Shown: in pieces, positions 4,005-48,004 of the stretch
Layout of the letters: each line of letters starts with the position of its first letter
Position numbering within the stretch: position 1 is the stretch's first letter
Source: Panopea generosa
Taxonomy: Eukaryota > Mollusca > Bivalvia > Adapedonta > Hiatellidae
Direction: 5' to 3'
Length of the DNA: 64,000 bases
Assembly (NCBI GenBank): GCA_029582155.1
Contig: CM055911.1
Coordinates: 20,585,514 to 20,649,513, forward strand
Position numbers and translations under genes: made by a program
Notes under the pieces: model-generated
Databases searched by the model: none
Told to the model about the DNA's origin: nothing
The model's input: the letters and a program-made list of their open reading frames with translations, nothing else

Positions 4005-4760
4005 CTGGATTGGTTAGGGGAGTTTTTACTGCGACAAAAGAAGACCGTAATCTGATGCACAAACACAGCTGACTACAGATTGCGAGATAGTTTGGACAAA
4101 GGTGAAGACCAAGAAGTACAAAGACATCTATCTTTGTTCCTTCTACATGCACGACATTGACGAACTCAGCAAATCAATTTTGGCAGTTTACCAAGCCAAC
4201 AAAAGAAAAACACATAGCACTAGCTGGCAACTTCAACTGTCCAGACATTGACTGGGAGAATATGTTAGTAAAGAAGGGTGCTGCAGACAGAGTGACACAG
4301 CAAGCTCTGGTAGACTGTTCTATAGAACATGGGCTTACTCAAGTCCACAACCAACCAACGAGAGATTCCAACATGATAGATTTGGTATTCACCAACAACC
4401 CCTCGCTTGACAAGACCTCCTTATCTATGCCAAGTATAGGCGATCACGCCATGATTGTCACAGACAGCAAAATCATCACATACGCCAGAAGCCCAGAACT
4501 TTCTTTATTTTCTCGAAGGCTAGTTGGGATGACATCTTTGCTGACAAAAACTACTATTTGAATATATCACCAATATACTATATCCCTTTGGGAGATTTTT
4601 AAGTCAATAATCAATCAATCTTTGATTCGAATCATCCCCACTAAAACAGGAAATCAGTACCCTGGTTCAACAAAGACCTGATAAGGATATTGAGACGAAA
4701 ACCAAGGTTGTATAAACACGCCAATCAGTCCAACCAGTCCAGATCTAGAAGATATGGCAA
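4005..4760 (+). pseudogene. LINE relic: endonuclease and linker of a non-LTR retrotransposon
   Basis: The frame from 4157 reads an APE-type endonuclease segment: ALAGNFNCPDIDW, then VDCSIEHGLTQ, QPTRDSN, DLVFTNNPS and IGDHAMIV. These are characteristic blocks of CR1/RTE-like LINE open frames in invertebrates. Upstream, near 4080-4150, a second frame gives EIVWTKVKTKKYKDIYLCSF, the preceding part of the domain. Downstream, near 4664-4740, a third frame gives WFNKDLIRILRRKPRLYKH, the usual linker before reverse transcriptase. Frame changes and stops between the blocks show it is dead. The reverse transcriptase itself is absent. Confidence 0.85.
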
Positions 4761-8775: not shown

Positions 8776-10638
8776 TTTTCTGTCATCCGCAATGTGGTGA
8801 TATTGTGTGTTTCAGGCCTGTGACGCAAGAGTAGTACATTAGCTTCTGTGGACGTCTGACTGCAGAGTGAAAGTGAAGAAATATACTGCCTTATCGACCT
8901 TTTAGCTGCCATACTGTTGCTGCCACTGCTTTCACTACTGTCGGATGATGATGCTGATGATAATCTGATTAATAGGCCCTTAATATAAGGTATGCAGTTT
9001 TTCTAAACCATAGCATGTTTTCTCTTTCTTTCACCTTTCATGATGGAATAATAACATCCCAGTTTCTACAGTGCCTTATATAGCAGACTATAAACATGGG
9101 AGGAGTGAACATGACCATCTAGTTTCCTATTTTGGCAATCTGGTTACTTGTTTTTGGCTTCTGTTTATAGACCTGTTATTTAGCACAGCAGAATGCCTTC
9201 TTTGATATTTAATGTGCAACTTGTCTGGAATGGAAGCCTGTTTCTTTTTGGTGAACTTATTTTATTCAAAATGATTTAAGAACATTAGAACAATAAATAA
9301 ATAGTAAAATATACATTTTATTTAAAGTAAAAATAATTATGTAAAATAAATTTAGAGATTTAGTCAGAATTTCAATGTTTTGGTCAGTAGCCGACTTCTA
9401 ATATTTTTTATAAATTTTCTCTCACTTGTATGACAGAAAAAACAAGTTTCATTTTCAGATTATAAATCCTATTGACTAAAGACCAGGCAAGTTTGATGAA
9501 ATTAGAATGATGAATAAAAAAGTTATTAAATTTTTAGAATTTCTGAATTGTTCCAGTATTCGGCCATTTTGGTCAATTTGTCAAAATACCAGCAAAAGTT
9601 GAAAGGCTGTAAAAATATCTTATTTTTCTTTCAAGATGTTTTGCCATTGTTACATTGGTAATATATGGGTTATTAATGTGCATTTTAATTTGACAATTTT
9701 TAAATCCAGATTTTCCTCTGGGAATTTGTTTTCTTTAGAATCTCGGAAAAATGGCGCTAATTTCTATACAGTTGACTAAAAAAATATGTTTTTTTTATAT
9801 CTCCATTTTGCATTGCTTAGTTTTATATAATTTTCAGACAGAGTAAATGTATACGAATAAATTTATACAGATAGTGGTATGTTATCTAGCCTAAAATAGT
9901 TGTATTACTGTTTTCAGTTTGTGCTTATTGCCAGATCTTTGGATTTTTCCCTGAATTTGACGCAATATCATAGGTTCAGCTGGCACATGAATGTGGACGA
10001 CAGTTTTTGAGATACAGCCATAGAATCTACTCTAACCACTAACCCTAAGGAAGGAGAGCACAGCCATGTGTTTTTAAAAGTCAGAATTAATGGAACAGTT
10101 TCATATAGGACTTAGACCAGGAACCAGGAGGTCAAAATGGTAGTTCCATAGAAAATTGACAGTGGTCGTTCAAGATGGTGTGAGTGTGAAAATGCACTTG
10201 ACAGGTACTATTGCAATAGGAACTTGTGAAGGGAATATATTTTCCCAGAGAATGGTGCAAAATTGAGTGGACTGGTAGTTATAACACACAGATGGGACTA
10301 TTTCTTAGACGGTAAGAAGTTTGCATTATTTGGCTGATTTGACCTCTGTATGTGAAATAAGGATACTTCGCTTTGAGCAACATGTAAAATTGGAAGCAGT
10401 TAATGCCCATGTTTTTAACTTTTTTTGTGTGTTCTGCTTGAATTGAATATGAATTCTGGACTTTCTCATGGAGTTTGGAGCACAACTATAAGTGTGACAG
10501 TCTACTGCGCTAATATTACGGTCTATGTGAAATTAATGGTGGCGCAGCTTCATATAGGAGAAATTCAATTGTATCGTTATAACTGTTTCATTATTAAGTT
10601 GCCAACCTATTTCAACGTCTAGGCATTTAGTTACTGGC
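8776..10638. other. AT-rich intergenic DNA
   Basis: No coding exon was recognised. The stretch is AT-rich with several T-runs. Nothing beyond short random open frames was seen. Confidence 0.45.
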
Positions 10639-13062
10639 GCTTCTATCAAGTTTGTACCCTGGCGCTCCTATCAAATTCGTATGATGGCGCTTCTATTAAG
10701 TTTGTACCCTGGCACTCCTATCAAGTTTGAATCACATGGCGCTTCTATCAAGTTTGTGCTCTGGCGCTCCTATCAAGTTTGTTTCATGGCGCTTCTATCA
10801 AGTTTATATGATGGCGCTTCTATCAAGTTTGTATCCTGGCACTCCTATCAAGTTTGAATCACATGGCGCTTCTATCAAGATTGTACCCTGGCACTCCTAT
10901 CAAGTTTGAATCACATGGTGCTTCTATCAAGTTTGTACCCTGGCACTTTTACCAATTTTGTATCACATGACGCTTCTATCAAGTTTGTACTCTGGCATTC
11001 CTATCAAGTTTGTTTCATGGCGCTTCTATCAAGTTTATATGATGGCGTTCCTATCAAGTTAGTATCACATGACGCTTCTATCAAGTTTGTACCCTGGCAC
11101 TCCTATCAAGTTTGTATCATGGCGCTTCTATCAAGTTTATATGATGGCGCTTCTATCAAGTTTGTACCCTGGCGCTCTTATCTAGCTTGTACCCTGGCGC
11201 CCCTATCAAGTTTATATCACATGACGCCTCTATCAAGTTTGTACCCTGGCACTTCTATCAAGTTTGAATCACATGGCGCTTCTATCAAGTTTGTATTCTG
11301 GCACTCCTATCAAGTTTGTTTCTTGGCGCTTCTATCAAGTTTATATGATGGCGCTTCTATCAAGTTTGTACCATGGCGCTCCTATCAAGTTTGTATCACA
11401 TAACGCTTCTATCAAGTTTGTTTCATGGCGCTTCTATCAAGTTTAAATCACATGGCGCTTCTATCAAGTTTTTACCCTGGCACTACAATCAAGTTTGAAT
11501 CATATTTGCGCTTCTATCAAGTCTGTACCCTGGCACTCCTATCAAGTTTGAATCACATGGCGCTTCTATCAAGTTTGTACTCTGGCACTCCTATCAAGTT
11601 TGTTTCATGGCGCTTCTATCAAGTTTATATGATGGCGGTTCTATCAAGTTTGTACCCTGGCGCTCCTATCTAGTTTGTATCACATGACGCTTCTATCAAG
11701 TTTGTACACTGGCGCTTCTATCAAGTTGTATGATGGCGCTTCTATCAAGTTTGTACCCTGGCACTCCTATTACGTTTGAATCACATGGCGCTTCTTTCAA
11801 ATTTGTACCCTGGCACTCCTATCAAGTTTTATGATGGCGCTTCTATCAAGTTTGTACCCTGGCACTCCTATTACGATTGAATCACATGACGCTCCTACCA
11901 AGTTTGTATCACATGACGCTTCTATCAAGTTTGTACTCTGGCACTTGTACTCTGGCACTTCTATCAAGTGTGTATGATGGCGCTTCTATCAAATTTGTAT
12001 GATGGTGCTTCTATCAAGTTTGTATGATGGCGCTTCTATCAAGTTTGTATGATGGCGCTTCTATCAAGTCTGTACCCTGGCACTCCTATCAAGTTTGTAT
12101 CACATAAAGCTTCTATCAAGTTTGTATGATGGCGCTTCTATGAAGTTTGTACCCTGGCGCTTCTATCAAGTTTGTATCACATGGCGCTTCTATCAAGTTC
12201 GTACTCTGGCGCGCCTATTAAGTTTGTACCCTTGCGCTCCTACCAAGTTTGTATCACATAACGCTTCTATCAAGTTTGTGTGATGGCGCTTCTACAAGTT
12301 TGTACCCTGGCGCTTCTATCAAGTTTGTATCACATGGCGCTTCTATCAAGTTCGTACTCTGGCGCTCCTATCAAGTTTGTACACTTGCGCTCCTACCAAG
12401 TTTGTATCACATAACGCTTCTATCAAGTTTGTATGATGGCGCTTCTATCAAGTTTGTACTCTGGCGCTCCTATCAAGTTTGTATGATGGCACTTCTATCA
12501 AGTTTGTATGATGGCGCTTCTATCAAGTTTGTACCCTGGCGCTCCTATCAAGTTTGTATCACATAACGCTTCTATCAAGTTTGTATGATGGCGCTTCTAT
12601 CAAGTTTGTACCCTGGCACTTCTATCAAGTTTGTACTCTGGCGCTCCTATCAAGTTTGTATGATGGCACTTCTATCAAGTTTGTACCCTGGCGCTCCTAT
12701 CAAGTTTGTATCACATAACGCTTCTATCAAGTTTGTATGATGGCGCTTCTATCAAGTTTGTACTCTGGCGCTCCTATCAAGTTTGTATGATGGCGCTTCT
12801 ATCATGTTTGTATGATGGCGCTTCTATCAAGTTTGTACCCTGGCGCTCCTATTAAGTTTGTATCACATAACGCTTCTATCAAGTTTGTATGATGGCGCTC
12901 CTATCAAGTTTGTATGATGGCGCTTCTATCAAATTTGTACCCTGGCGCTCCTATTAAGTTTGTAACACATAACACTTCTATCAAGTTTGTATGATGGCGC
13001 TCTATCAAGTTTGTATGATGGCGCTTCTATCAAGTTTGTATGATGGCGCTTCGAAAACACTG
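10639..13062. repeat. 25-bp minisatellite (about 95 units)
   Basis: The unit is TGGCGCTTCTATCAAGTTTG followed by TATGA, TACCC or ATCACA, giving 25 to 27 bp. Units differ mainly in that last segment and in CTTC versus CTCC. The array ends sharply at 13062 (…GCGCTTCG|AAAACACTG). Stop-free frames through it read MALLSSLYDGASIKF-type periodic peptides. These come from the repeat and have no start or splice context. Confidence 0.93.
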
Positions 13063-18181: not shown

Positions 18182-18647
18182 TTATTCATACGTTCGCATT
18201 TTTATCCTGACAAGTCTGTCTATTGTTTTAAACGTTGGAAACAATCCCGTTTTCCCAGTTCTTAGATTTCTTCCTTTTGAATATCCGTTCCAATGGTTAC
18301 CAAAGATAACTATAGCATCATCTTTCTTTATATCAATCTCAACACTGCCGACATTCAGCTGCGCAACGTGATCCTCGATGGCGTATACTAGATGATCCTT
18401 CTGTCCGTTAAAGTAAAATATGTCGTCTAAAGATTTGAACGACTTTGACGCATCTTCGTGTCTTGGCTGCATCAGCTCATACGCTGCTCTTCCAATGTTA
18501 GATGAAAATGTTACAACTATAAAATCACACAGAGAAAGAAAATGTACGTCTTGAAAAACACCAATCAAAGATGACTTTGTATATCGGCTCTTTACGCCAG
18601 CTTTCTTTGTCATATTGTTATCGTTGATGAAAATGTAGTTTGGATAC
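18182..18647 (-). CDS. FUT8-like: FUT8-like coding exon 8: C-terminal catalytic part and SH3-like domain
   Basis: Acceptor TTATTAG; 154 residues and stop. [39 protein letters not shown] and [13 protein letters not shown] complete the transferase domain. [17 protein letters not shown] and [10 protein letters not shown] form the SH3-like domain typical of FUT8. The protein ends KMRTYE, about ten residues shorter than the vertebrate tail. No ER-retention signal is visible. Confidence 0.95.
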
Positions 18648-21600
18648 CTAATAAAAGAGTGTCAGACAAAATTGATTTGTTTCGAAATCATTGTCTTCTA
18701 TTTGTAGAAATGATATTAATAATTGTTAAAACATAAGAACAGGAAACTTATTTACGAGACGAGTTTTTAATATTAATATCAATATATCAATCTGCTGTAC
18801 CTAATCAACAAAAGATTCACTTACATCTGTTGTGACTTAATCAACAGGTGATCCACTTACCTATGTTGTGCCTTGATCAACACGTGATCTACTTACAACT
18901 GATGTGCCTTAATCAACAGATGATCCACTTACATCTGTTGTGCCTTGATCAACACGTGATCTACTTACAACTGATGTGCCTTAATCAACAGGTGACCCAC
19001 TTACATCTGTTGTGCCATGATCAACACGTGATCCAATTACAACTGATGTGCCTTAATCAACAAGTGATCGACTTACATCTGATGTGCCTTAATCAACAAG
19101 TGATCGACTTACATCTGATAAGCCTTAATCAACAAGTGATCCACTTACATCTGCTGTGACTTAATCAACAATGATCCACTCACATCTGCTTTGCCTTAAT
19201 CAACATGTGATCCACTTACATCTTCTGTACCTTAATGAACAAGTCATCCACTTACATCTTCTGTACCTTAATTAACAAGTGATCCACTTACATCTTCTGT
19301 GCCTTAATCAACAAATGATCCACTTACATCTGCTGTGCCTTAATCAACAAGTGATCCACTTACATCTTCTGTACCTTAATGAACAAGTGATCCACTTACA
19401 TCTTCTGTACCTTAATCAACAAGTGATCCACTAACATGTTCTGTGCCTTAATCAACAAATGATCCACTTGCATCTGCTGTGCCTTAATCAACAAGTGATC
19501 CACTTACATCTTCTGTACCTTTATTAACAAGTGATCCACTTACATCTGCTGAACCTTAATTAATAAGTGATCCACTTACATCTTCTGTACCTTAATCAAC
19601 AAGTGATCCACTTACATCTCTGTACCTTAATCAACTAGTGATTCACTTACATCTGCTGCACCTTAATTAACAAGTGATCTACTTACATCTTCTGTACCTT
19701 AATTAACAAGTGATCCACTTACATCTGCTGTACCTTAATTAATAAGTGATCCACTTACATCTGCTGTACCTTAATAAATAATTGATCCACTTACATCTTC
19801 TGTACCTTAATCAACAAGTGATCCACTTACATCTGCTGTGCCGTAATCAACAAGTGATCCACTTACATCTTCTGTGCCTTAATCAACAAGTGATCCACTT
19901 ACATCTGCTGTGCTTTAATCAACAAGTGATCCACGTACATCTTCTGTACCTTAATGATCAAGTGATCCACTTACATCTTCTGTACCTTAATCAACAAGTG
20001 ATCCACTTACATCTTCTGTGCCTTAATCAACAAATGATCCACTTACATCTGCTGTGTCTTAATCAACAAGTGATCCACTTACATCTGCTGTACCTTTATT
20101 AACAAGTGATCCACTTACATCTGCTAAACCTTAATTAATATGTTATCCACTTACATCTGCTGTACCTTAATCACCAAGTGATCCACTTACATCTCTGTAC
20201 CTTAATCAACAAGTGATCCACTTACATCCGCTGTGCCTTAATTAACAAGTGATCCACTTACATCTACTGTGCCTTAATTAATAAGTGATCCACTTACATC
20301 TTTTGTACATTAATCAACAAGTGATCCACTTACATCTGATGTACCTTTATTAACAAGTGATCCACTTACATCTGCTGAACCTTAATTAATAAGTGATCCA
20401 CTTACATCTTCTGTACCTTAATCAACAAGTGATCCACTTACATCTCTGTACCTTAATCAACAAGTGATTCACTTACATCTGCTGTACCTTAATTAACAAG
20501 TGATCTACTTACATCTTCTGTACCTTAATGAACAAGTGATCCACTTACATCTGCTGTACCTTAATTAATAAGTGATCCACTTACATCTGCTGTACCTTAA
20601 TAAATAATTGATCCACTTACATCTTCTGTACCTTAATCAACAAGTGATCCACTCACATCTGCTGTGCCGTAATCAACAAGTGATCCACTTACATCTTCTG
20701 TGCCTTAATCAACAAGTGATCCACTTACATCTGCTGTGCCTTAATCAACAAGTGATCCACGTACATCTTCTGTACCTTAATGATCAAGTGATCCACTTAC
20801 ATCTTCTGTACCTTAATCAACAAGTGATCCACTTACATCTTCTGTGCCTTAATCAACAAGTGATCCACTTACATCTGCTGTACCTTTATTAACAAGTGAT
20901 CCACTTACATCTGCTGAACCTTAATTAATAAGTTATCCACTTACATCTGCTGTACCTTAATCACCAAGTGATCCACTTACATCTCTGTACCTTAATCAAC
21001 AAGTGATCCACTTACATCTGCTGTGCCTTAATTAACAAGTGATCCACTTACATCTTCTGTGCCTTAATCAACAAGTGATCCACTTACATCTTCTGTACCT
21101 TTATTAACAAGTGATCCACTTACATCTGCTGAACCTTAATTAATAAGTTATCCACTTACATCTGCTGTACCTTAGTCACCAAGTGATCCACTTACATCTC
21201 TGTACCTTAATCAACAAGTGATCCACTTACATCTGCTGTGCCTTAATTAACAAGTGATCCACTTACATCTTTTGTACATTAATCAATAAGTGATCCACTC
21301 ACATCTTCTGTATCTTTATCACCAAGTGATTCATTTACATCTTTTGTACCTTAATCAACAAGTGATCCACTTACATCTGATGTGCCTTAATTAACAAATG
21401 ATCCACTTACCTCTTCTGTACATTAATCAACAAGTGATTCACTTACATTTGCTGTACGTTAATCAACTAGTGATCCAATACAGTTGCTGTACCTTAATCA
21501 ACAAATGACCCACTTATTTCTAATGTGCCTTAATCAACAAGTTATCCACTTACATCTGCTGTACCTTAATAAACAAGTGATCCACTTAAATCTACTGTGC

Positions 21601-24600
21601 CTTAATTAATAAGTGATCCATTTACATCTGCTGTGCTTTAATTAACAAATGATCCACTTACATCTGCTGTACCTTAATTAACAAGTGATCCATTTACAAC
21701 TGCTGTTCATTAATTAATAAGCATTCCACTTACATCTTCTATGCATTAATCGACAAGTGATCCACTAACATCTGTTCTACCTTAATCAACAAATGATCCA
21801 CTTACATCTTCTGTACTTTAATTAATTAGTGATCCACTTACATCTGCTGTGCTTTTATTAATAAGTGATCCACTTACATCTGCTGTACCTTAATTAAAAG
21901 TGATCCACTTACATCTGCTGTGGCTTAATCAACTAGTGATCCAATAACATATTTTGTACCTTAATCAACAAGTGATCCACTTACATCTGCTGTACCTTAA
22001 TTAACAAGTGATGCACTTACATCTGATGTACATTAATCAACAAGTGATCCACTTACATCTGCTGTGCCTTATTTAACAAGTGATCCACTTACATCTGCTG
22101 TACCTTAATTAACAAGTGATATCCACTTACATCTTACATCTGATGTACATTAATCAACAAGTGATCCACTTACATCTGCTGTGCCTTAATTAACAAGTGA
22201 TCCACTTACATCTGCTGTACCTTAATTAACAAGTGATCCACTTACATCTGCTGTACATTAATTAATAAGTGATCCACTTACATCTTCTATGCATCAATCG
22301 ACAAGTGGTCCACTTACATCTGTTCTACCTTAATCAACACAACTTACATCTGCTGTTCCTTAATTAACAAGTGATCCACTTACATCTGCTGTGCCTTAAT
22401 TAACAAGTGATCCACTTACATCTGCTGTACCTTAATTAAGAAGTGATATCCACTGACATCTTACATCTGATGTACATGAATCAACAAGTGATCCACTTGC
22501 ATCTGCTGTGCCTTAATTAACAAGTGATCCACTTACATCTGCTGTACCTTAATTAACAAGTGATCCACTTACATCTGCTGTACCTTAATTAACAAGTGAT
22601 CGACTTACATCTGCTGTACCTTAATTAACAAGTGATCCACTTACATCTGCTGTACTTTAATTAACAAGTGATATCCACTTACATCTGCTGTGCCTGAATC
22701 AACAGCAATGCGTCGTCAGTAGCAAGGTACACTCGCCGTTTATCTACTGGTTGCCTCATTTCATACGCAGAAAACCATTCTTCAACGGATTGCATATATT
22801 CATCTATACCATGGAACACTGCTTCACGATCGACTTTATCTGTTCTTCTTATATGTATTCTAATAACAGATTGGGTTTAAATGAAAATACATAGCAATAG
22901 TATAAAGTTGATATTCGTGCACAGGATACCATTTACAAACGTCACAGACCCATGACATTTCTAGCTGCAATAAACTTTCAGACTGATTTCCTTCTATTCG
23001 AGGGTTTTACTAGACCTGATTCGGGAGATATCATGTTCTATATTTAGACTACTTAGAAATTAGTAAATACTCTGTCATCAATGAGTAAACATACAACTAC
23101 CACCATACAGGGCACACATGTGATACTCTGCAGAGTAAGCGGCCCTTATATGCTTGAAATATTTAAATTGTTTCAAAAAGGCTCGTTAGAAGGCTTACAT
23201 ATCAGCAACCAGTCTATATTTGTAAGTATAATTATTGAAACAATAGATTTGATCAGAATTAAAAAAAAACTCATAGGGACATGTACCATAACCATTTTGT
23301 TAGAATTATATAACGTTTTATACTTTGGAAATTGAGGTAGATATGTATAGAATGTTCTTATCTCTGAATCCACTAGTCATACTGTGTATTTAATGTATTG
23401 TGTATCTTGGTAAAGTCTGATCAACAATAAATTAACTAAATAATTACACTTAACACATATTAAGTTAGCATTTAAGTTAAATATGCGTTAACGGTGTGTG
23501 AATTAATTTACTAACTAAGCTTTTGTTACGTATAAATGTGCTCTAAATAGTAAAGACTAAGTTAGTGTTACGTACTTTACATAATAAAGACTAAGTTGTT
23601 GTTACGAACTCTAAATAACAAAGACTAAGTTATTGTTACGTACTCTAAATAATACGACTAAGTTATTGTTACGTACTCTACATAACAAAGACTAAGTTAT
23701 TGTTACGTACTCTAAATAATATGACTAAGTTATTGTTACGAACTCTAAATAATAAAGACTAAGTTATTGTTACGTACTCTACATGATAAAGACTAAGTTA
23801 TTGTTACGAACTCTACATTATAAAGACTAAGTTATTGTTACGAACTCTAAATAATACGACTAAGTTATTGTTACGTACTCTACATAACAAAGACTAAGTT
23901 ATTGTTACGAACTCTAAATAATAAAGACTTAGTTATTGTTACGGACTCTAAATAATGAAGACTAAGTTATTGTTACGTACTCTACATAATAAAGACTAAG
24001 TTATTATTACGAACTCTAAATAATAAAGACTAAGTTATTGTTACGTACTCTAAAAAATACGACTAAGTTATTGTTACGTACTCTACATCACAAAGACTAA
24101 GTTATTGTTACGTACTCTACATAACAAAGACTACGTTATTGTTATGAACTCTAAATAATAAAGACTAAGTTATTGTTACGTACTCTAAATAACAAAGACT
24201 AAGATATTGTTACGTACAAATGTACTCTAAATAATAAATACCAAGTTATTGTTACGTACTCTAAATAACAAAGACTAAGTTATTGTTACGTACTCTAAAT
24301 AATAAAGACTAAGTTATTGTTACGTACTCTAAATAATAAAGACCGAACGTACCCGACGATAGGATTTTGGAATTCAAGTTTGTCTTTCTCTGTCGATAAA
24401 TATTCTTCCAGTTTTTCATTGGGACGTGTCAGATATTTTACGAACTGTCCTATCCACCACGCTGGTGGATCACCATGGAAACGCAATATTCTGTCAGCCA
24501 AATCTTCTGGGATTGCAAGTGGCATATAATCCGGTGTGTGAATTGTGTACGGATAACGCGGTAAAACCATCACCTGTATGTGTTCGTTTGGTGTTACTGA

Positions 24601-27600
24601 AGTTAAGAACGTTTTAAAACTGTTGTCGTTGTAGCAAAAATTGATTGAAAGAAAGTTAAAATGAAATGAACAGTGAATATTATGTTTTATCCATTTGATA
24701 CCAACTTTTCACATTATTACCGTAATATTTGTTGCCGAAGCCCGTCTTGCTCATATACATACACAAACTATTAAATCAATAATTTTTACCGATGGATCAG
24801 CGGAAAACGACCGTCATTCAAAGGTCGACTTACTTTTCGAATTGCCTCTATTGTTATAAGTTTGGTTTTATTCCTAACCAATCGGTTGATATGTATAAAT
24901 TTGTAACGAAAATAATATGTATCTTCTAATGTGGTACGTATATGGACATTTTCTATTTCCATCTGGACCCAGTTGTTCAAAGTTCACTTCATTATTTTTT
25001 ATACTTATTGATGTTATGTCCATTTAAATGTATTTTCAGAAACAAAATGGCATTTTTCATAATTTTCAATAAAACGATAACCTAAAATGTTGGATATCTC
25101 CAAATATCATTATTTAAAATCCTCACTTAAACCAGGGTTAAGCTAGCCAAGTTTTGAAGAACTGGGCACTGGTGTTTATTAATGTTTGTGACAATCCTGA
25201 ATTCCAGTTGAAGTTTGTGTAATGACGATATTTATCTGGTGGATGTTTATCATTCTAAACTTTCATTTAACACAATAAGATTCGTGTAAATATTGAAATT
25301 AATAACTTGATATTAATTTGTTATAGTTCACTCTGCTATGGGTTTTAATGATTATCTCCAATTCTGCATAAATGTAGATGCCAGTCTTTGATTTAAAGCA
25401 TTAAGGATCATGCATCGACATTTTTATTTGGATACTCGTCTGGTTTTGCATGTTACCCGTCCGAATACCCCGTAAACGAAATCATTTTGAGTAGATTTCT
25501 TTACACATGACAGTTTTTTTTCTTCAAAATTGTGTATGAATACTTTCAATAGCGATAGCCTGTGCAAAGCCCCATACTTCTGCGCCATATGACAATATTG
25601 GCGATATTAACGTGTTAAACAAATCAACAATATGTTTCAAGGACACATTTACAATTTTGTATACATATTTGTTTAACATTTAAGAAGCCTTTAATGCTTT
25701 TCCAGCTTACATTTTAATTGTGTCAGCAAATGAACCACCTGTTGTAAACACTATTTCAAGGTTTGTGAATTTGTGAACTATCTCCAACTTGATTCCAGCA
25801 TATATAATTTCTGTATCCCTTGCCAAACGACCACCATTACGAAATACCATAACGTTTGTTTTTGAAGTGTTCATAAAAAGTTTCCACTTTTGACAGTATT
25901 CATATAACACATTTAAACCATTCTGTAAATTGGTTTGAGATTTAGAGAATATTACAATATTATCTGTGTATAATAATACAAAAAGATTCATACACAGTCC
26001 CTAGATATCATAAAAAAACCTAGACATCATACAACACACCTAGACATCATACAACACCCCTTTACATCATACAAAACCCCTAAACATGATGCAAAATCCC
26101 TAGACATCATACACATCCCCTATACATCATGCAACTCCTCTAGACATCATACAAACCCTATGCATCATACAAAACCCCTAGACATCATACAACACCCTTA
26201 GATATCACACGAAAACCCTAGATATCATAGAATATCCCTAGACATCATACAAAACACTTAGACATTATGCAACACCCCTAGACATTATACAAAACCCCTA
26301 GACATCATATAACACCTCTAGATATCATACAACACCCCTAGACATCATACAACAGCCCTAGATATCATACAACATCCCTAGACAGCATACAACACCCCCA
26401 GACATCATACAAAACACCTAGACATCATACAACACCCATTTACATCATACAAAACACCTAGACATCGTGCAAAACCCCTAGACATCCCCTATATATCATG
26501 CAACTCCTCTAGAAATCATACAACACCCCTAGACATCATACAAAATCCCTAGACATCATACAGAAAACCTAGACATAATACACATCCCCTGTTTATCATG
26601 CAACTCCTCTAGACATCATACAACACCCCTAGACATCATACAAAACCCCTAGACGTCATGCAAAACACCTAGACACCATACAAAATCCCTAGACATCATA
26701 CAGAAAATCTAGACATCATACAAAACCCAAGGCACCATACAAAACCCCTAGACATCATACACCACCCAAAGACATCATACAAAACCCCTAGACATCATAC
26801 AAAAACCTTTAGACATCATACAAAACCCCTAGACATCATACAGAAAACCTAGACATCATACACATCCCCTAAATATCATGAAAAACCATTAGCCATTATA
26901 CGAAACCCCTAGACATCATAAAAAAACCATAGACATCATACAACTCCCCTAGCCATCATAGAAAACCCCTAGACATCTTACTAAACCCCTAGACATAAAA
27001 CAAATCCCCTAGACATCATACAAAATCCATAGACATCATACAAAACCCCTAGACATCATACAACTTCTCTAGACATAATACAAAACCCCTAGACACTATA
27101 CACATCCCCTAATCATTATTTATACGATTGCAGTGTAAAATTTGTCGCTGACAAATATTTTTATTAACATAAATTAAGGTAAACTCAAGTAAATAAGTGT
27201 TTTCTACCGGAGGTTCGACGTTGATTTAGCGTTATACTTAGCATATGGCAAGGAATATACATACATTAGAAATAGTCTAGAATGAAAAATACATGTAAAA
27301 CGATGAATGGGGAAAACGTCAAGGGTACCTGGCTGGTCATGCTACTCACAAATAGCGTAATTTTATCCTGAATTTAAGTCGGTATATACACACAAATAAA
27401 TCAATAAAAAGGAGTTAAATTCTGATATTCAGCAATATAATTATATCTAGTGTATGAACTGTGATGAATGTTTAGAAACATTCTCTGCAGTCTTTCATTT
27501 CTTGGCAAAGGCTTGTTATTGTTTTGCATAAAGGGACAAAACGTGTTAGCCTCAGAAGGCAAAAAACATACATGTATTTTAAAATGGTTCCGTAAATATT

Positions 27601-29655
27601 GACAAATATTCAAATCAAATAGATAAGAATTGGTTCATTTATTTATATTTTAAAAATATTTATTTGGAAAGACTTGCTTAACTTATTTTTCTCAGTATTT
27701 ATACCATGCTTTGAAATTTCGGCAAGTATGTATACACGCTTTTAAAGGATATAACGGTGGTACCTGACCATTTTTCGACACTCTTCCCCTCTATATTTAC
27801 ACATGTTTTACTGAGGGGCTGAAATATGGCATCCCATCCCTCCTGGGAGGCGTACTCCCAACCCTTGGATTCTAGAATCAGTGTCCGGTTCGTCGCATAT
27901 GCTTGTATGAGGCAGTAGGTCACGTGATGAAGTTGACAACCAAACCCACATTCATTTTGTAGTGAACATATTAACTTCCTGGCATTGGAACAGTCTTTAG
28001 GATTCTAAAAAAACAAAAATGTTAAAATTCAACGTGCGTGTGTATCATGCTATTGAAAAGAGATATAGAGAATACCATGTAAGTGTCTGATATTATCAAC
28101 TTTATCAGGTGAGGCTTAGAAAAAAAACAGGACGAGGCTTTATGTTTTTGTGCCTAACCTGCTAAAGTTTATAATATTAGACACTTATATGGTATTCTAT
28201 TTATAATGTCAATATTTCTAATTCTTTTTTATTCATTTTAAGTACCTAGTGTTAAAAGTAGTTACGCCCATGTCAAAATATATAATTATACAAAATTACG
28301 TCATGTGCCTGATAAACTTGCATTGACGTGATGAACCTATGTTTATCTGGCAGGCAGTTTATCAACAGAAATGAATGCATTGACATGATAAAACGAATAA
28401 TGCGCACATCAGGTGTGTACGAGTAATACTTTATCATTTTACACGTACATATGAAAAGTTTGTTTTAGAACAAAACTATATTATTTTAACGTGTACTTTA
28501 AAAAATAATCATTGAAATTTAAAAAAAGGCCTAAGAACTAACATCGACCACGGCTGTGGCAGAATAGAGATATCGAGACGTTATTCTTGGGACTCAGCGC
28601 TACAGAGGACCATGGACGTGGATTATTGAACCAAGGTGGTTTCTCACAGTCATTACCTGCAGAATAGTCAACCTTCTCTGAACAATGTCTCCTACATATG
28701 TTGATTGGTAGTTGTGTAACTCATCTTGCTTGTTGGCAGCTGCTAATTTGTACATCAAGTGCTGAAGCATTCTGTAAAAGTCGTTGAGGCAAATGTGATG
28801 ATAGATGAATATAAATATTTTTGTCAGCTTTACAGAAGTGGTTCCTGTTTAAGAAATGTTTAACAAGAACTCGAGGGGGAGGCCACCAAGTTTGCGCAGT
28901 TAGCTTAATATTTTATGGATGTATTTGCTGAAGTCTAACAGTAGAATTTGTGAAATATATAAGACTTGATTAGCTGGACATTTGTAACATAATTCCTATG
29001 TGTGTTGATGAAAAACAAACTGAAAAGAAAGATGTGTTTATTTATTATGATCTGAAATTATTCTAGTGTTATTATTCCACTTATACGATGTTTCATTGTT
29101 TTATTTACTTTTAAGAAAGGTGATTTACTAATATATACTGAGCCAAATTTCTAATTGGTCACCAACATTTTGAAAGCATTTCTCTCAAACATGGAAATAG
29201 TCAACATAACAACTAGAAGTAGATTTGTTCACATATTAATTGCTATAACTGTATGGACAATAACATAATAAACGAAAAATGTTACACTGTAAAGAGCATC
29301 ACCCTCAGTTCAGAAAGTAATTTTTTATATTAACTTTAATATTTAATAGAATAAATATGAAATCATGCTATCACGCTATAATAACGAAAATTAGGAAAAC
29401 ACATCCAAAAATGAAAGGACGTGTCCCTGCGACCCATAACATTATTCTCTCATCCAATAATTAGATAGTTTTCGTCATAAATTTTCTAAAATTAATCTTT
29501 AAAATGAGGTTCCGTCCAAAAAATGCATTTTCTCTGGAATTCGAATAGCAATTTTATGTATGAATGATTTCATGAAGCCTTCCTCATAAAATGCAGTAGT
29601 CATAACAATAGCACTTATATATTTGTCACAATTTCAAGAATATATATATATATAT

Positions 29656-36599: not shown

Positions 36600-39500
36600 C
36601 ATCACTATTCTGAAAAACTCTGTAAGCTAATGTATTGGGTTCACACATTTTACCACTGCTACATGTAAGTTAATGTACTGGGTTCACATACTTTACCCTT
36701 GCCACATGTAAGTTAATGTACTGGATTCACATACTTTACCACTGCTACATGTAAGTTAATGTACTGGGTCCACATAATTAACCCCTGCCACATGTAAGTT
36801 AATGTACTGGGTTCACATACTTTACCCTTGCCACATGTAAGTTAATGTACTGGATTCACATACTTTACCACTGCTACATGTAAGTTAATGTACTGGGTCC
36901 ACATAATTAACCCCTGCCACATGTAAGTTAATGTATTGGGTTCACATACTTTACCCCTGCCACATGTAAGTTAATATACTGGGTTCACATACTTTACCAC
37001 TGCTACATGTAAGTTTATGTACTGTGTTCACATACTTTACCCTGCCACATGCAAGTTAATGTATTGGGTTGACAAACTTTACCCCTGCAAAATATAAGTT
37101 AATGTATTGGTTTCACATATTTTACCTCCTGCCACATGTAAGTTAATGTACTTTGTTCACATATTTTAGCACTGCTACATGTTAGTTAATGTACTGGGTT
37201 CACATATTTTACCACTACTACATGAGAACTAATGTACTGGGTTCACATACTTTACCGCTGCCACAAGTAGGTTAATGTATTTGGTTCACATATTTTACCA
37301 CTGCTACAAGAAAGTTAATGTACTGGGTTGACATACTTTACCACTGCTACATGTAAGTTTATGTACTTGGTTGACATACTTTACCACTGTTACATGTAAA
37401 TTTATGTACTGGGTTGACATACTTTACCACTGCTACATGTATGTTTATGTACTGTGTTCACATACTTTACCACTGCTACATGTATGTTTATGTACTGTGT
37501 TCACATACTTTACCACTGCTGCATGTAAGTTTATGTACTGGGTTGACATACTTTACCCTGCCACATGCAAGTTAATGCATTTGGTTCACAAACATTTCCC
37601 ATGCAACATATACGTTAATGTATTGGTTTCACATATTTTAACCCTGGCACATGAAAGTTAATGTATTATGTTCACATATTTTACCACTGCTATATGTAAG
37701 TTAATGCACTGGGTTCTCATACTTTACCCTGCCACATGCAAGTTAATGTACTGAGTTTATATACTTTTTCCCGCTACATCCAAGTTAATTTACTGGGTTC
37801 ACATATTTAACCACTGCTACACGAAAGTTAAAGTATTAGGTTCACATAATTTACCACTGCAATATGTAGTTCAATGTATTGCGTTCATATACTTTACATC
37901 TGCGACATGTAAGTTAATGTATTGGGTTGGTTAATGTAATGGGTTCACATACTTTACCCGTACCGCATGTCAGCTAATGTAATGGGTTCACATACTTTAC
38001 CATTGGTACATGTAAGTTAATGTACTGGGTTCACATTCTTTACACCTCCGCATGTAAGTCAATGTACTTGCTTGACATATTTTACCTCTACTACATGAAA
38101 GTTAATGTATTGGGTTCACACATTTTACCACTGCTACATGTAAGTTAATGTACTGGGTTCACATACTTTACCCCTGCCACATATAAGTTAATATACTGGG
38201 TTCACATACTTTACCACTGCTACATGTAAGTTAATGTACTGGGTTCACATATTTTACCCCTGTCATATTAAAGTTAATGTACTGCATTCACACACTTTAC
38301 CCCTGCTACATGTAAGTTAATGTACTGGGTTCACATATTTTAACACTGCTGCATGTAAGTTAATGTAATGGGTTCACATGTCTTATCACTGCTACACGAA
38401 AGTTAATGTATAAGGTTCACATAATTTACCCCTTTCATATGTAATTCAATGTATTGCGTTCACATACTTTACCCCTGTCATATGTAATTCAATGTATTGC
38501 GTTCACATACTTTACCCCTGTCATATGTAATTCAATGTATTGCGTTTACATACTTTACCCCTGTCATATGTAATTCAATGTACTGCGTTCACATACTTTA
38601 CACCTGCCACATGTAAGTTATTGTATTAGGTTCACATACTTAACCACTGCTACATGTTTGTTAATGTATTGGGTTCACATACGTTGCTTCTGCTAGATGT
38701 AAGTTAATGTATTAGCTTCACATACGTTACCACTGCTAGATGTAAGTTAAAGTACTGGTTTCACATACTTTACCCCTATCACATGTAAGCTAATGTATTG
38801 GGTTCGAATACTTTACCACTGCTACATGTAAGTTAATGTACTGGGTTCACATATTTCCCCTTGCCACGTGTAAGTTAATGTACTGGGTTCACTGTTTTCC
38901 TCTGCCACATGTAAGTAAATGTACTGAATTCACATATATTACCACTGCTATATGAAAGTTAATGTACTCTGTTCACATATTTTACCACTACTACATGTAA
39001 TTTACTGTAATTGTTTCCCATACATTACAACTGCTACATGTAAGTTAATGTACTGGGTTCACATATTTTACCACTACTACATGTAATTTACTGTAATTGT
39101 TTCCCATACATTACAACTGCTATATGAAAGTTAATGTACTCTGTTCACATATTTTACCACTACTACATGTAATTTACTGTAATTGCTTCCCATACATTAC
39201 AACTGCTACATGTAAGTTAATGTACTGGGTTCACATATTTTACCACTGCTACATGTTTGTTAACCCTTTACTTCATATAGACACCTTTGGACACCTCTAA
39301 TATAGACGCTTTTGGAGACCTAATATAGAAGGCTTTTGAATTATTGGATGAATTATGTTTATATTAACTGACAGAGGTAAAAACAGTGCAGGAAGTGTTC
39401 AGTTTGCTCGTTACGAGCAATCTGAACTCTTCCTGCACTGTTTTCAAAGGCCTTCTTCTAATTGGTGCGGGAAATCGCGTATCTATGGAGTAAAGGGTTA

Positions 39501-40606
39501 ATGTAATTGGTTCACATATCTTATCACTGCTACACGAAAGTTAATGTATTAGGTTCACATAATTTACCCCTACCGTATGTAATTCAATGTTTTGCGTTCA
39601 CATACTTTACACCTGCCACATGTAAGTTATTGTATTAGGTTCACATACTTTACTACTTCTACATGAAAGGTAATGTACTGGGTTCACATACTTTACCCCT
39701 GTCACATGTAACATAATGTACTGGGTTCACATACTTTACCACTGCTATATATAAGGTAATGTACTGTGTTCACGTACTTTACCCCTGCCACATGTAAGTT
39801 AATGTATTGGGTTGATATACTTTACAACTGCCACATGTAGGTTAATGTATTGGGTTCACATAATTTACCACTTCTACATGAAAGGTAATGTACTGGGTTC
39901 ACATACTTTACCCCTGTCACATGTAACATAATGTACTGGGTTCACATACTTTACCACTGCTATATATAAGGTAATGTACTGTGTTCACGTACTTTACCCC
40001 TGCCACATGTAAGTTAATGTATTGGGTTGATATACTTTACAACTGCCACATGTAGGTTAATGTATTGGGTTCACATACTTTACCACTGCTATACATAAGT
40101 TAATGTACTGGGTTCACATTCTTTACCCCTGCCGCATGTAAGATAATGTACTGGGTTTACATATTTTACACCTGCTACATGTAAGCCAATGTACTGGGTT
40201 GACATAATTTACCACTGCTACATGAAAGTTAATGTATTGGGTCCCTATATTTTACCACTACTACATGTAAGTGACTGTAATTGGTTCCCATACTTTACAA
40301 CTGCTACATGTAAGTTAATGTACTGGGTTCACATATTTTAACTTTACCACATGTAAGCTAATGTACCGGTATTGGGTTCACATACTTTACCCCTGCCAGA
40401 TGTAAGTTAATGTAATGGGTTCTCATATTTTACCCCTGCCACATGTAAGTTAATGTAATGGGTTCTCATATTTTACCCCTGCCACATGTAAGTTAATGAA
40501 TTCGGTTCACATATTTTACCACTACTACATGTAAGTTAATGAATTTTTCACATACTTTACCCCTGCCACATGTAAGTTAATGTACTGGGTTAACATATTT
40601 TACCCC
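36600..40606. repeat. 43-bp minisatellite (about 86 units)
   Basis: The unit is CTGCTACATGTAAGTTAATG then TACTGGGTTCACATACTTTACCC, with CTGCCACATG variants. A segment of about 215 bp is duplicated almost perfectly (39657 and 39872 onward). The array is interrupted by the MITE at 39264-39497. On the plus strand each unit contains GTAAGT; on the minus strand it contains GGTAAAGTATG. Confidence 0.95.
39264..39497. mobile_element. piggyBac-like MITE with TTAA target duplication
   Basis: It is flanked on both sides by TTAA (39260-39263 and 39498-39501). The ends CCCTTTACTTCATA and, inverted, CCCTTTACTCCATA form terminal inverted repeats. Removing the element and one TTAA restores a normal 43-bp array unit, so the insertion site is proven inside the array. 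A long internal hairpin lies at 39379-39444 (arms AACAGTGCAGGAAG and CTTCCTGCACTGTT). There is no open frame. TTAA duplication and CCC termini are hallmarks of the piggyBac superfamily. Confidence 0.85.
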
Positions 40607-40802
40607 TGCGCCCCCACCCCAACCTTATCTGCAAAGATCTATAGTGATCATTTTATTTGGATCCACACGGATTAGTTTATACTGCACAAATATCATTAAA
40701 ATAAGATCATCTTAGTAGCTTCCACATCTACGCTAAGTATTACTATGTGTAGAGTATCGAAGCTTAAAGTTGATCTGATTGTAATCAGATTGATACTACA
40801 TG

Positions 40803-41479: not shown

Positions 41480-43960
41480 TGTAACTTACCCTACTTACCA
41501 TGTATAAACATGTAGCCTATTCACCATATATAACGTGTACCATACTCACCATGTATAAACATGTACCATACTCACAATGTATAACGTGTACCATACTCAC
41601 CATGTATAAACATGTAGCCTACTTACCATGTATAACGTGTACCATACTTACCATGTATAAACATGTAGCCTACTCACCATACATAACGTGTACCATACTC
41701 ACCATGTATAAACATGTACCATACTCACCATATATAACATGTACCATACTCACCATGTATAAACATGTACCATACTCAACATGTATAACGTGTACCATAC
41801 TCACCATGTATAAACATGTAGCCTACATACCATGTATAACGTGTACCATACACACCATGTATAAACATGTAGCCTACTTACAATGTATAACGTGTACCAT
41901 ACTCACCATGTATAAACATGTACCATACTCACCATGTATATACATGTGTACCCTACTTACCATGTATAACGTGTACCATACTCACCATGTATAAACATGT
42001 ACAATACTCACCATGTAAAACGTGTATTATACTCACCATGTATAAACATGTAGCCTACTCACCATGTATAACGTGTACCATACTCACCATGTATAAACAT
42101 GTACCATACTCACCACGTATATACATGTACCTTTCTCAAAATATATAACGTGTACCCTACTCACCATGTATATACATGTACCATACTCACCATGTATATA
42201 CATGTAGCTTTCTCACAATGTATAACGTGTACCCTACTCACCATGTATATACATGTAGCCTACTCATAATGTATAACGTGTACCCTTTTCACTATGTATA
42301 TACATGTAGCCTACTCACCATGTATATACATGTAGCCTACTCACTAAGTATAACGTGTACCCTACTCACCATGTATATACATGTAGCCTACTAAACATGT
42401 ATATACGTATAGCTTACTCACTATGTATAACGTGTACCCTACACACCATGTGCATATGTGTACCGTACTCACCATGTATATACATGTAGCCTATTCATAA
42501 TGAATAACGTGTACAATACTCACAATGTATATACATGTAGCCTACTCACAATGTATAACGTGTAGCCTACTCACTATGTATATACATGTAGCCTACTCAC
42601 AATGTATAACGTGTAGCCTACTCACCAAGTATAACGTGTACACTACTCACCATGTATATACATGTACTCTCCTCACAATGTATAACGTGTAGCCTACTCA
42701 CTATGTATATACATGTAGCTTACTCACTATGTATATACATGTAGCCTACTCACAATGTATAACGTGTAGACTACTCACAATGTATAACGTGTAGCCTACT
42801 CACTAAGTATAACGTGTACAATACTCACCATGTATATACATGTAGCCTACTCACAATGTATAACGTGTAGCCTACTCATTATGTATATACATGTAGCCTA
42901 CTCACTATGTATATACATGTAGCTTACTCACAATGTATAACGTGTAGCCTACTCACTATGTATATACATGTAGCTTACTCACTATGTATATACATGTAGC
43001 CTATTCACTATGTATATACATGTAGCCTACTGACCATGTACAACATGTACCCTACTCACCATGTATATACGTGTACCCTATTCACCATGTATAACACGTA
43101 ACCTACTCACCATGTATAACATGTACATACTCATCATGTATAACCTGTACCCTACTCACCATGTATAACGTGTACCCTACTCACCATGTTTATACATGTA
43201 CCATACTCACCATGTATAACATGTACCCTACTCATCATGTATATACTTACCCTACTCACCATGTATATACGTGTATCCTACTCACCATGTATAACACGTT
43301 ACCTACTCACCATGTATAACATGTACATACTCACCATGTATAACCTGTACCCTACTCACCATGTATAACGTGTACCCTACTAATCATGTTTATACATGTA
43401 ACCTACTCACCATGTATAACATGTACCCTACTCACTATGTATATACATGTACCATACTCACCATGTATAACATGTACCCTACTCATCATGTTTATACATG
43501 TACCATACTCACCATGTATAACATGTACCCTATTCACTATGTATATACATGTACCATACTCACCATGTATAACATGTTCCCTACTCACAATGTATAACGT
43601 GTACCTTATTCACTATGTATATACATGTACCATACTCACCATGTATAACATGTACCCTATTCACTATGTATATACATGTACCATACTCACCATGTATAAC
43701 ATGTTCCCTACTCACCATGTATAACATTTTCCCTACTCACCATGTATATCATGTACCCTAATCATCATGTTTATACGTGTACCCTACTCAGCATGTTGAT
43801 ACATGTAACCTACTCACCATGTATATGCGTGTACCCTACTCATCATGTTTATACATATACCCTACTCACCATGTATAACGTGTACCCTACTCACCATGTT
43901 TATACATGTAACCTACTCACCATGTATATACATGTACCCTACTCATCATGTTATACATGT
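41480..43960. repeat. 25/26-bp minisatellite, lower block (about 97 units)
   Basis: Alternating units: CATGTATAACGTGTACCATA+CTCAC (25 bp) and CATGTATATACATGTAGCCT+ACTCAC (26 bp). On the minus strand every unit carries ACATG|GTGAGTA, a 5' splice-site-like core. Plus-strand open frames rich in MYKHVPYSPCITCTIL are by-products of the unit. Confidence 0.96.
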
Positions 43961-44102
43961 ATAATTCCAATCTCATTATCATATATGTATTTAAAGCATT
44001 TTCTTTGGACAACGTCAATTTTTGAAAGACTTTTATTTTTAGATAAAACCCTGGAGCCGGACTACGTTTACGTTTCTCGCGTAAACAAAGAAGCATCGAC
44101 AT
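43961..44102 (-). CDS. Candidate first coding exon, unrecognised
   Basis: A minus-strand frame begins with ATG in good context (AAAATGTCG) and reads MSMLLCLREKRKRSPAP, then GFYLKIKVFQKLTLSKENAL. It has CpG-rich codons absent from the surrounding DNA. It runs into the 25/26-bp array, whose units begin with a donor-like ATG|GTGAGT. The plus strand is also open here (KTLEPDYVYVSRVNKEAS), so orientation is not certain. Confidence 0.25.
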
Positions 44103-44888
44103 TTTGATGGTCGGTTTAACAATATACGAACTTAAATGACGTGCACAACGGATCCACGTTTATTTTAATAATAAAATACAACAAAAACAAATGTTAGCTC
44201 TAGTCCTAGCTGTTTTATTCGGTTTATAGTTTTCTTTGGTTCAGCGATTTAACCGGGCGCGACAATCATTCCAGAAACAATGAATTAGGTCACAAAATGT
44301 TCAGATTTGAGATGTATGTTGTACAATTGAACACAATGTTTACCGAATGTTTACGTGCAGACCAATTTATTCAACAGGAAAAATGAAATAAAAACATGTA
44401 CATGTAGTTGAAGTTCAGAAGCAAACAATCGTGAGACAATGTAAATACACATACCTTGCACGTTAAAGTCGTTTAAAACGTTCCAAATTCGGATTTTCCA
44501 TCAACCAACGTGGATTTATATGACCTTCGTAAATATTGACACATTTTAAAAAAACAATCGTGTAGATAAAAACGAAATTATGACGTCAGCGTCTACACTT
44601 GTGGGTATTTCCTCGAGTTATTGGTTGTTTATTTGAGATAAAAGGCGGGTGTTTAATTTGTTTACCTCAATATATTTCGCCATTTAACAATAAACCAACT
44701 AATGTTACAGAGTTCATCTGATAATGGAAATAGACGATATTATTGGATGTTAGATGTAGAGAATTTGATGTCAACCAGGACAGAGGTGATGTATTCTTAC
44801 GCGTTTACTTTGCAGCGTATAGTTATTTATTTTTTTTTTTCATTCACTTGAGGAGTCTCAAAATAAATATAATCATCAAGATTGGAAT
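44103..44888. promoter_or_regulatory. Unique island with promoter-like motifs between array blocks
   Basis: Contains a full CRE palindrome TGACGTCA at 44581-44588, an inverted CCAAT core (ATTGG) at 44620-44624, and GC-rich pieces (CCGGGCGCGAC near 44255). On the plus strand a short ATG frame near 44725 (MEIDDIIGC) ends at once. The motif set and loss of satellite suggest a promoter, perhaps of the candidate exon at 43961-44102, but no transcript start can be shown. Confidence 0.35.
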
Positions 44889-45043
44889 TATAAGGATTAA
44901 ATTCATTTGTTTCTGTTTTTTATGCATGTGTAAAGAATGTCGAATCACGCACAAATCTGACAAAAAGTCCTTCAGACTTTATTTGATTTGTGCGTGATTC
45001 GACATTCTTTACACATACATAAAAAACAAAAAGTTAATCCTAT
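44889..45043. repeat. Long inverted repeat at the array boundary
   Basis: The arms at about 44889-44957 and 44985-45043 pair through GTTTTTTATG, then CATGTGTAAAGAATG and TCGAATCACGCACAAATC. Twenty-seven bases are perfect and about 43 have one mismatch, with a 27-bp loop. The right arm passes directly into the 25/26-bp array. It could be a foldback element or a cruciform left by a rearrangement of the array. Confidence 0.8.
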
Positions 45044-47269
45044 AACCCTACTCACCATGTATAACATGTACCCTACTCACCATGTATAACATGTACCCTA
45101 CTCACCATGTAAAACATGTACCCTTCTCACTATGTATATACATGTAACCTACTCACCATGTATATACATGTAACTGACTCACCATGTATAACATGTACTC
45201 TACTCACCATGTATATACATGTAACCTACTCACCATGTATAACATGTACCCTACTCACCATGTATATACATGTAACCTACTCACCATGTATAACATGTAC
45301 CCTACTCACCATGTATATACATGCAACCTACTCACCATGTATAACATGTACCCTACTCACCATGTATTTACATGTAACCTACTCACCATTTATAAACATG
45401 TAACCTACCCACCATGTATATACATGTAACCTACCCACCATGTATATACATGTAACCTACTCACCATGTATAACATGTCATCTACTCACCATGTATATAC
45501 ATGTACACTACTCACCATGTATATACATGTACCCTACTAGCCATGTATATACATGTAACCTACTCACCATGTATAACATGTTACCTACTCACCATGTATA
45601 TACATGTAACCTACTCACCATGTTTATACATGTAACCTACTCACCATGTATAACATGTCATCTACTCACCATGTATATACATGTACCCTACTAGCCATGT
45701 ATATACATGTAACCTACTCACCATGTATAACATGTACCCTACTCACCATGTTTATACATGTACCATACATACAATGTATATACATGTACCTTATTAGCCA
45801 TGTATATACATGTAACCTACTCACCATGTATATACGTGTACCCTACTCAACATGTATAACGTGTACCCTACTCACCATGTATATACGTGTACCCTACTCG
45901 CCATGTATATACGTGTACCCTACTCAACATGTATAACTATTACCATACTCACCATGTATATACGTGTACCCTACTCACTATGTATAACGTGTACCCTACT
46001 CACCATGTATATATGTGTACCCTACTCACCATGTTTATACATGTACCATGATCACCATGTATATACATGTACGCTACCCACCATGTATAACGTATACCCT
46101 ACTCATCATGTATATACATGTAGCCTACCCACCATGTATAATGTGTACCCTACTCACCATGTATATTCGTGTACCCTTCTCACCATGTATAACGTGCACC
46201 CTACTCACCATGTTTATACATGTACCATGATCACCATGTATATACATGTACACTACTCACCATGTATAACGTGTACCCTACTCACCGTGTTTATACATGT
46301 ACCATGATCACCATGTATAAACATGTACCTTACTCATCATGTATATACGTGTACCCTACTCACTATGTATAACGTGTACCCTACTCACCATGTTTATACA
46401 TGTATTCTATTCACCATGTATAACGTGTATCCTACTCACCATGTATATACGTGTACCCTACTCACCATGTATAACGTGTACCCTACTCACCATGTTTATA
46501 CATGTACCATGATCACCATGTATATACATGTACCCTACTCACCATGTATATACGTGTGACCTTATCACTTTGTATAAGTGTACCGTACTTACCATGTTTA
46601 TACATGTATTTATATACATGTAGCGTACTCACCATGTATATACATGTAGCGTACTCACCATGTATATACATGTACCCTACTCACCATGTATATTCGTGTA
46701 CCATACTCACTATGTATAACGTGTACACTACTCACCATGTTTATACATGTACCATACTCACTATGTATATACATGTAGCATACTCACCATGTATATACAT
46801 GTAGCGTACTCCCAATGTATATACATGTAGCCTACTCACCATGTATACTCACCATGTATACACATGTAGCCTACTCACCATGTTTAACGTGTACCCTACT
46901 CACCATGTATATACATGTAGCGTACTCACCATGTATATACATGTAGCCTACTCCCCATGTGTATACATGTAGCGTACTCATCATGTATATACATGTAGCG
47001 TCTCACCATGTATGTACATGTAGCGTACTCACCATGTATGTACATGTAGCCTACTCACCATGTATACTCACCATGTATACACATGTAGCCTACTAACCAT
47101 GTATAACGTTTACCCTACTCACCATGTGTATACGTGTACCCTACTCACCATGTATACACATGAACCCTACTCACAATAAATATATATATATATATATGTG
47201 TGTGTACCATACTCACCTTGTATATACATGTACCCTACTTACAATGTATACACATGTACCCTACTCACC

Positions 47270-47323
<54 letters not shown>

Positions 47324-47762: not shown

Positions 47763-47832
<70 letters not shown>

Positions 47833-47963: not shown

Positions 47964-48004
<41 letters not shown>

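Follow-up and report, generated by a model that had tools for sequence, protein, structure and literature searches.

The stretch of the Panopea generosa genome analysed here (contig CM055911.1, positions 20,585,514 to 20,649,513; the 64,000 nucleotides are called the window, and position 1 is its first letter) carries exons 5-8 of a gene on its minus strand, spanning 18.2-28.0 kb. The gene is predicted to be a member of the alpha-1,6-fucosyltransferase (FUT8) family, with a frame that appears intact across exons 7-8, the part covered by the reading-frame check. PF19745 matches it exon by exon, with homology to the catalytic domain and an SH3-like end, and the protein matches FUT8 in the PDB with an E value of 7.5e-65. 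Its best-scoring named relatives are from bivalves, the Mercenaria protein having 57% identity. Over the exon 7-8 junction the spliced protein, ...LIQAQQ-M-YPNY, aligns to PDB FUT8 chains without a gap. A weak family match near 30.5 kb, below the cut-off, may mark an additional exon.

A 36-bp array beginning at the exon 7 donor

Intron 7 (18648-22682, 4035 bp, GT..AG) has its donor G at 22682 and leads into exon 8, which begins at 18647. From the exon 7 donor onward it is occupied by a 36-bp tandem array, after which ~140 bp of unique sequence lead to the acceptor. Tandem Repeats Finder (TRF) places the array at 18790-22704 (period 36, 108.6 copies, 86% matches), and parsing gave 108 full units, upholding the original prediction of about 108 intronic copies of the exon 7 end plus its donor. 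The unit, GTAAGTGGATCACTTGTTGATTAAGG(T/C)ACAGCAGAT, is a donor plus a copied exon end: ~27 nt of the end of exon 7 are joined to 8-9 nt from the start of intron 7, so that close to three quarters of a unit, though intronic, resembles exon sequence. GT is kept in 104/108 units and GTAAGT in 91/108.

The unit consensus agrees with the last 22 bases of this exon (copy A) at 20/22 positions (binomial P = 1.2e-10 at a 1/4 chance per base; 4.4e-9 after 36 phases). The best local score of exon end against unit was 20 for copy A and 24 for copy B, described below, as compared to a maximum of 18 among 20,000 random 58-mers from the region outside arrays. The earlier statement that the boundary is repeated almost exactly is reasonable, if loose, as the exact 20-mer TTGATTAAGGCACAGCAGAT is present in only 3/108 units of A and 0/48 of B, and exon A's own CAG variant in none of the 108 units of array A. 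With a unit that spans the exon-intron boundary and includes exon sequence, the array falls within the definition of a mirage, a minisatellite formed by tandem duplication of such a boundary.

A partial segmental copy of the gene, copy B, lies ~66 kb away (C18:20539773-20542288), its exons 7 and 8 having 95% and 97% protein identity in the matched parts. It bears a 36-bp array of 48 full units, 60 fewer than A, with GTAAGT in 37 and GT in 46. The segmental duplication pairs C18:20517323-20543192 (L012-L014) with, at a minimum, window positions -2019 to 23773, 89-95% identical in pieces, and more duplicated pieces lie beyond it. It terminates inside a 34-bp array of intron 6; a 39-bp array adjoins the break. 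A search of 264 kb found no exon 5 or exon 6 for copy B. When edge windows of the two arrays were compared, matching units were A6-B4, B41-A97, B42-A98 and B46 with either A102 or A104. At the distal edge, the last 11-12 units of A and the last 8 of B have common variants that are rarer inside.

Direction of the duplication

A family search of the whole genome (all genome searches used the 1.47-Gb assembly of 39 contigs) returned 34 exon matches. Six other FUT8-like paralogues have introns at the same positions as the array-bearing gene. In the stretches fetched (all of intron 7 in four paralogues, several hundred bases from the donor in the other two), no minisatellite follows their donors, only short simple repeats, and in 3/6 exon 7 ends in GCA CAG, in frame and at the same place. 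The original prediction had proposed comparing this boundary among relatives; run on paralogues, the comparison came out in its favor.

Among 120 related proteins, 70 could be parsed by pattern and 50 could not, and in all 70 the spacing from LATDD to YPNY is 10 residues. The exon of copy B, which matches the unit over 26 bases with one gap, retains TCA for the family serine, and its residues S, L, L and A agree with the family pattern PSLLxEAK (39, 49, 66 and 69 of the parsed proteins, respectively), which argues that those codons were not made by the repeat. A boundary-repeat query of the genome gave at least 88 matches, all in the FUT8 introns of A and B; the query scores the best candidates, here two, and 88 is a lower bound. 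Because exon length and residues follow the family, the paralogues are free of the array and the matches are confined to FUT8 introns, the end of exon 7 most likely seeded the array and not the reverse, in keeping with the earlier proposal that the repeat grew from an exon of unchanged family length. An introner-type mobile intron, for which dispersed near-identical copies that create new introns would be expected, was rejected because the matches found, a lower bound, are confined to two paralogous introns and the intron position is common to the paralogues.

Donor choice and predicted effects on the mRNA

Exon 7 ends in phase 2 (AT/G, the slash marking the junction), and any retained intron reads ATG TAA. 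Use of any of the 92 distal GTRAGT donors would yield a protein truncated after ...LIQAQQM. The truncation expected in the original prediction thus stands, although it is the donor's own TAA, and not one in TTAA, that ends the frame. The expectation that distal donors would add multiples of 36 bp failed: donor spacing is not uniformly 36, the first step is 38, and the 93 GTRAGT positions fall 24, 31 and 38 at remainders 0, 1 and 2 modulo 3. For nonsense-mediated decay (NMD), the distance between stop and junction is usually taken as at least 50 nt, and for 91/92 distal donors the stop lies that far before the new junction.

Computed U1 pairing of the distal donors equals that of the true donor in 75 cases, is stronger in 9 and weaker in 8, bearing out the earlier view that they are as good as the true one; the true donor is therefore not marked by strength. 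In vitro, equal duplicated donors tend to favor the downstream site, and the intact frame here suggests that the first donor, not a downstream one, is in use. We infer use of the first donor because the frame is intact, the exon can be defined from the acceptor 177 nt upstream, and the first donor is transcribed first. Transcripts from distal donors would be degraded by NMD, and the array would otherwise be near neutral. RNA structure was tried as a basis of donor choice and rejected, the 441-nt fold around the junction being unremarkable (z 0.55).

Rules for the choice among identical 5' splice sites come mostly from constructs with two or a few sites. Some 90 natural donors, most of them alike in local sequence and accompanied by copies of the exon end, provide a test of splice-site choice. 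Since both the donors and the exon end are copied, donor strength and exon-end sequence hardly explain the choice, and transcription order and exon definition remain.

Recurrence at other exons of the genome

Three copies of CAGGTAAGT spaced 8-38 bases apart were matched 408 times genome-wide as compared to 163 times for the backwards pattern; these matches overlap and are not independent. The equivalent CAGGTGAGT pattern gave 420 against 197, a count inflated by a dispersed repeat with CAGGTGAGT about every 40 bases (C1:47251479, C1:58794087, C2:4011611 and others). Among the matches listed, distinct loci counted by eye from C1 to C6:71.05 Mb numbered at least 23 for the donor and at least 12 for the backwards pattern (binomial P = 0.045).

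The 5' side was examined for the 23 donor loci distinguishable among the matches listed, of which L041 and L053 run off even with an extra 1 kb. Four of the 21 usable loci have a homology-supported exon flush with the array (Table 1), three have support from frame only, and 14 show nothing clear. In the four supported loci, homology extends to 0-3 residues from the first donor and the unit contains an exon-tail match of 10-43 nt. One of them is eIF4A3, which encodes the core of the exon junction complex: its exon of 108 nt is followed by 12.2 copies of a 42-bp unit that holds the last 24 exon bases. Direction is clearest here, as these 24 bases encode NRELYIH, a stretch that the PDB eIF4A-III chain has unchanged. 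For the SPB4-like peptide the PDB gave no match.

The three frame-supported loci (L042, L044 and L046) offer an open frame and a plausible acceptor. The L046 peptide is weakly C-type-lectin-like (E 0.08), and that of L044 had no PDB match. The 34-bp unit at L046 (C3:39989640-39990723) is almost wholly exon-end-like (32 nt, 1 mismatch), with a donor and an acceptor-like CTTTTTCTCCTACTGCAG. At L048, L049 and L058 further repeats precede the array edge. Sub-threshold Pfam matches were left uncounted (L043, VWA, 0.0037; L054, 0.031; L042, second frame, 0.11; the L056/L051 pair, 0.23); the Pfam scan covered the donor loci apart from L049 and the extra frames of L044, L050 and L058. At L060 (C6:71050880-71051985), a strong polypyrimidine-AG is followed after only 18 nt by a donor array, possibly a microexon flush with the array.

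Among the backwards-motif controls, 13/20 loci had a frame open for 18 codons or more at the array edge, and the control peptides had no Pfam match at E up to 1 (12 of the 13 were scanned; L076 nearly equals L075). In one control-motif array, L086 (C16:55082978-55085554), many units contain TGAG/GTAAGTG, and an exon at its edge was not confirmed. Supported exons, at 4/21 as compared to 0/20, give a borderline Fisher P of 0.059, in a comparison that is uneven: a set of the donor peptides was hand-trimmed at exon edges and TTC7 came from the PDB alone, while controls were scanned with Pfam only. The weight for recurrence rests on single cases, not on the group test. Among eight cases tabulated, the donor TAA stands directly after the junction codon in three (FUT8, eIF4A3 and SPB4), and in the other five a stop follows after 2 to 26 residues.

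Other arrays and features of the region

Intron 6 of the FUT8-like gene (1493 bp) begins GG/GTACGTTCGGTC, and its 34-bp array, situated at the exon 6 donor, repeats GA/GTACGTAAC. The 20-bp array of intron 5 and the matched end of exon 5 are ~650 bp apart. Inspection by eye of some or both edges of the arrays at 10635-13052, 36621-40609, 41487-49470 and 56591-57386 showed no coding exon, so the link between array and exon is not universal. Across a 264-kb region around the window, 24 long tandem arrays make up 56,519 of 264,000 bases (21%). Donor-like motifs were found in 4/14 hand-listed array units as compared to 0.57 expected from shuffles (P = 0.002), a count that includes the 36-bp unit that prompted the study. 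At C18:20665363-20678823 (window +79850 to +93310) a degenerate donor-like unit of 14 bp, GTAGGTAAGGTAAG, is repeated in an array of 13.5 kb, which is adjoined by an array of TACCTTACTTACT in the opposite orientation. The window also holds an FHA domain at 54317-54574, which we take to be MCRS1-like, a reverse transcriptase fragment at 25710-26000, an endonuclease-reverse transcriptase fragment at 4106-4558 and a ShK domain at 1662-1898.

Table 1. Features of the FUT8-like gene (window positions) and homology-supported exons flush with arrays elsewhere in the genome
Feature	Position	Strand	Basis
Exon 8 (last, up to stop codon) of FUT8-like gene	18182..18647	-	Splice join; alignment to PDB FUT8
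Intron 7, 3' portion without repeats, end ATTAG	18648..18789	-	
Intronic stretch of 36-bp array, 108 full units	18790..22682	-	TRF and unit parse
Exon 7 true 5' splice site GTAAGT, phase 2	22677..22682	-	Splice join
Exon 7 tail homologous to unit, 22 nt (copy B: 26 matching nt)	22683..22704	-	
Exon 7 of FUT8-like gene, 177 nt	22683..22859	-	Splice join
34-bp array in intron 6, 23.5 copies; GA/GTACGT in unit, resembling exon 6 donor	23541..24343	-	
Exon 6 true donor GTACGT; shortened first unit begins here	24347..24352	-	TRF edge 24343, 9 bases further in
Exon 6, coding portion matched to family	24353..24582	-	Family match
Exon 5, matched portion	27762..28004	-	FUT8_N_cat, Pfam E 2.1e-39
L052 (L063), eIF4A3	C4:69466300-69468758		PDB eIF4A-III E 1.3e-17, all 36 residues
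L055, Sushi exon			Pfam 1.3e-9
L057, SPB4-type helicase C-terminal extension; 14 copies of 45 bp			Pfam 4.9e-9
L050, TTC7; 3 copies of 28 bp			PDB 3.2e-6, residues 2-25 of 28

Origin of the array and alternative explanations

We consider it very probable that the 36-bp array is a mirage, born by tandem duplication of the exon-intron boundary. A segment of ~36 bp, made up of ~27 nt from the end of exon 7 and 8-9 nt from the start of intron 7, would have been duplicated in place, and unequal exchange or slippage would then have produced ~108 units in the gene and 48 in the segmental copy. The duplication would be tolerated because the original first donor still yields normal mRNA, and any later donor would keep G-TAA in frame and give a truncated enzyme. 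Several observations weigh against this account. The exon similarity of the units shows a weak gradient, 17.6-19.4 of 22 by tenths of array A, and it is the paralogues alone from which the state before the array is read. The donor columns are slightly better conserved (0.971 as compared to 0.906, rank 2/36 windows, in A; 0.962 as compared to 0.902, rank 5/36, in B), leaving weak room for selection on donors. Finally, the 34-bp unit of intron 6 has a donor and no exon 6 tail (best match 6 nt); it lacks the exon sequence by which a mirage is defined, and the case for boundary seeding in this gene is therefore confined to exon 7.

The array could be kept by selection, its ~90 U1 sites soaking up U1, suppressing premature intronic polyadenylation or setting the enzyme level via stop-containing transcripts from distal donors. 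This would fit the retention of GTAAGT in most units of both arrays and the rank of the donor columns, but the conservation excess is small and partly reflects a handful of variable columns outside the donor, private variants in the donor columns (3/31 in A and 1/22 in B, 1/6 being expected) are not decisive, and the RNA fold near the junction is unremarkable. We regard such selection as unlikely. Somewhat less likely again is that the arrays of introns 6 and 7 arose independently and spread until an exon stopped them, their link to splice sites being incidental. The missing exon 6 tail, the distance of the intron 5 array from its exon and the long window arrays with no coding exon seen at their edges would all be expected if this were so, yet 22-27 nt of exon are part of the exon 7 unit itself, and the four further supported exons likewise have their tails in the unit.

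Invasion of intron 7 by a pre-existing satellite or mobile element that overwrote the exon end is very improbable. Overwriting or conversion could equally have produced the repeat-like TTGATTAAGGCACAGCAGAT that forms the exon tail of copy B, but that 20-mer is rare in array A and absent from array B, the exon keeps the length and residues of its family, paralogues without an array have the intron at the same position, and the unit matches found, a lower bound, all lie in two paralogous introns; at eIF4A3, the copied stretch codes for residues identical to those of the PDB chain. Boundary duplication would offer a clear route from coding sequence to non-coding satellite DNA. A broader proposal is that minisatellites arise repeatedly at 5' splice sites in this genome, with arrays in many genes, eIF4A3 included, seeded by the gene's own exon end and donor, splicing routinely ignoring tens of equivalent donors, and the duplications started by some donor-linked process. 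Such a process may involve, for instance, a DNA structure that forms with transcription or repair that stalls at the junction. We advance this tentatively and think it rather more likely to fail than to hold.

Comparison with known systems

The original paper on mirages is reportedly that of Canestro et al. 2002. In two later papers (PMC3087553, PMC3902484), amphioxus mirages are described as minisatellite-like tandem duplications across exon-intron boundaries in Adh3, the globins BflGb6 and BflGb9, PGBD5 and troponin C, with length instability and with edges that escape homogenization; regular splicing is reported for Adh3 and the globins. The FUT8-like array is like them in its boundary-spanning tandem repeats and repeated splice signals. 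Unlike amphioxus, a cephalochordate, its host is a mollusc, it has 108 units of 36 bp as compared to 3 or 6 units of 150-160 bp in BflGb6, and regular splicing, on record for amphioxus Adh3 and globins, is a prediction here. The Rogers model of intron gain via tandem duplication of an AGGT segment, as named in PMC3087553, likewise involves a tandem duplication that carries a splice signal, but here an intron was lengthened and none gained, its position being common to the paralogues.

Internal tandem repeats that remodel human paralogues (De Grassi and Ciccarelli 2009; PMC2812944) resemble the present case in minisatellite expansion inside genes of segmental duplications, and differ in that splice-boundary seeding is no part of that paper's outline or abstract. 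A parallel with intronic minisatellites of earthworm metallothionein was rejected, boundary seeding not being found in the available part of the source (PMC12783039). Literature searches on molluscs and bivalves yielded no relevant report of boundary minisatellites, although one may still exist in print. If common in molluscs, such arrays would help explain the heavy minisatellite load in and around genes and would carry mirages beyond amphioxus. The kind is thus already described, as the amphioxus mirages; what is new is the mollusc lineage and the recurrence within one genome.

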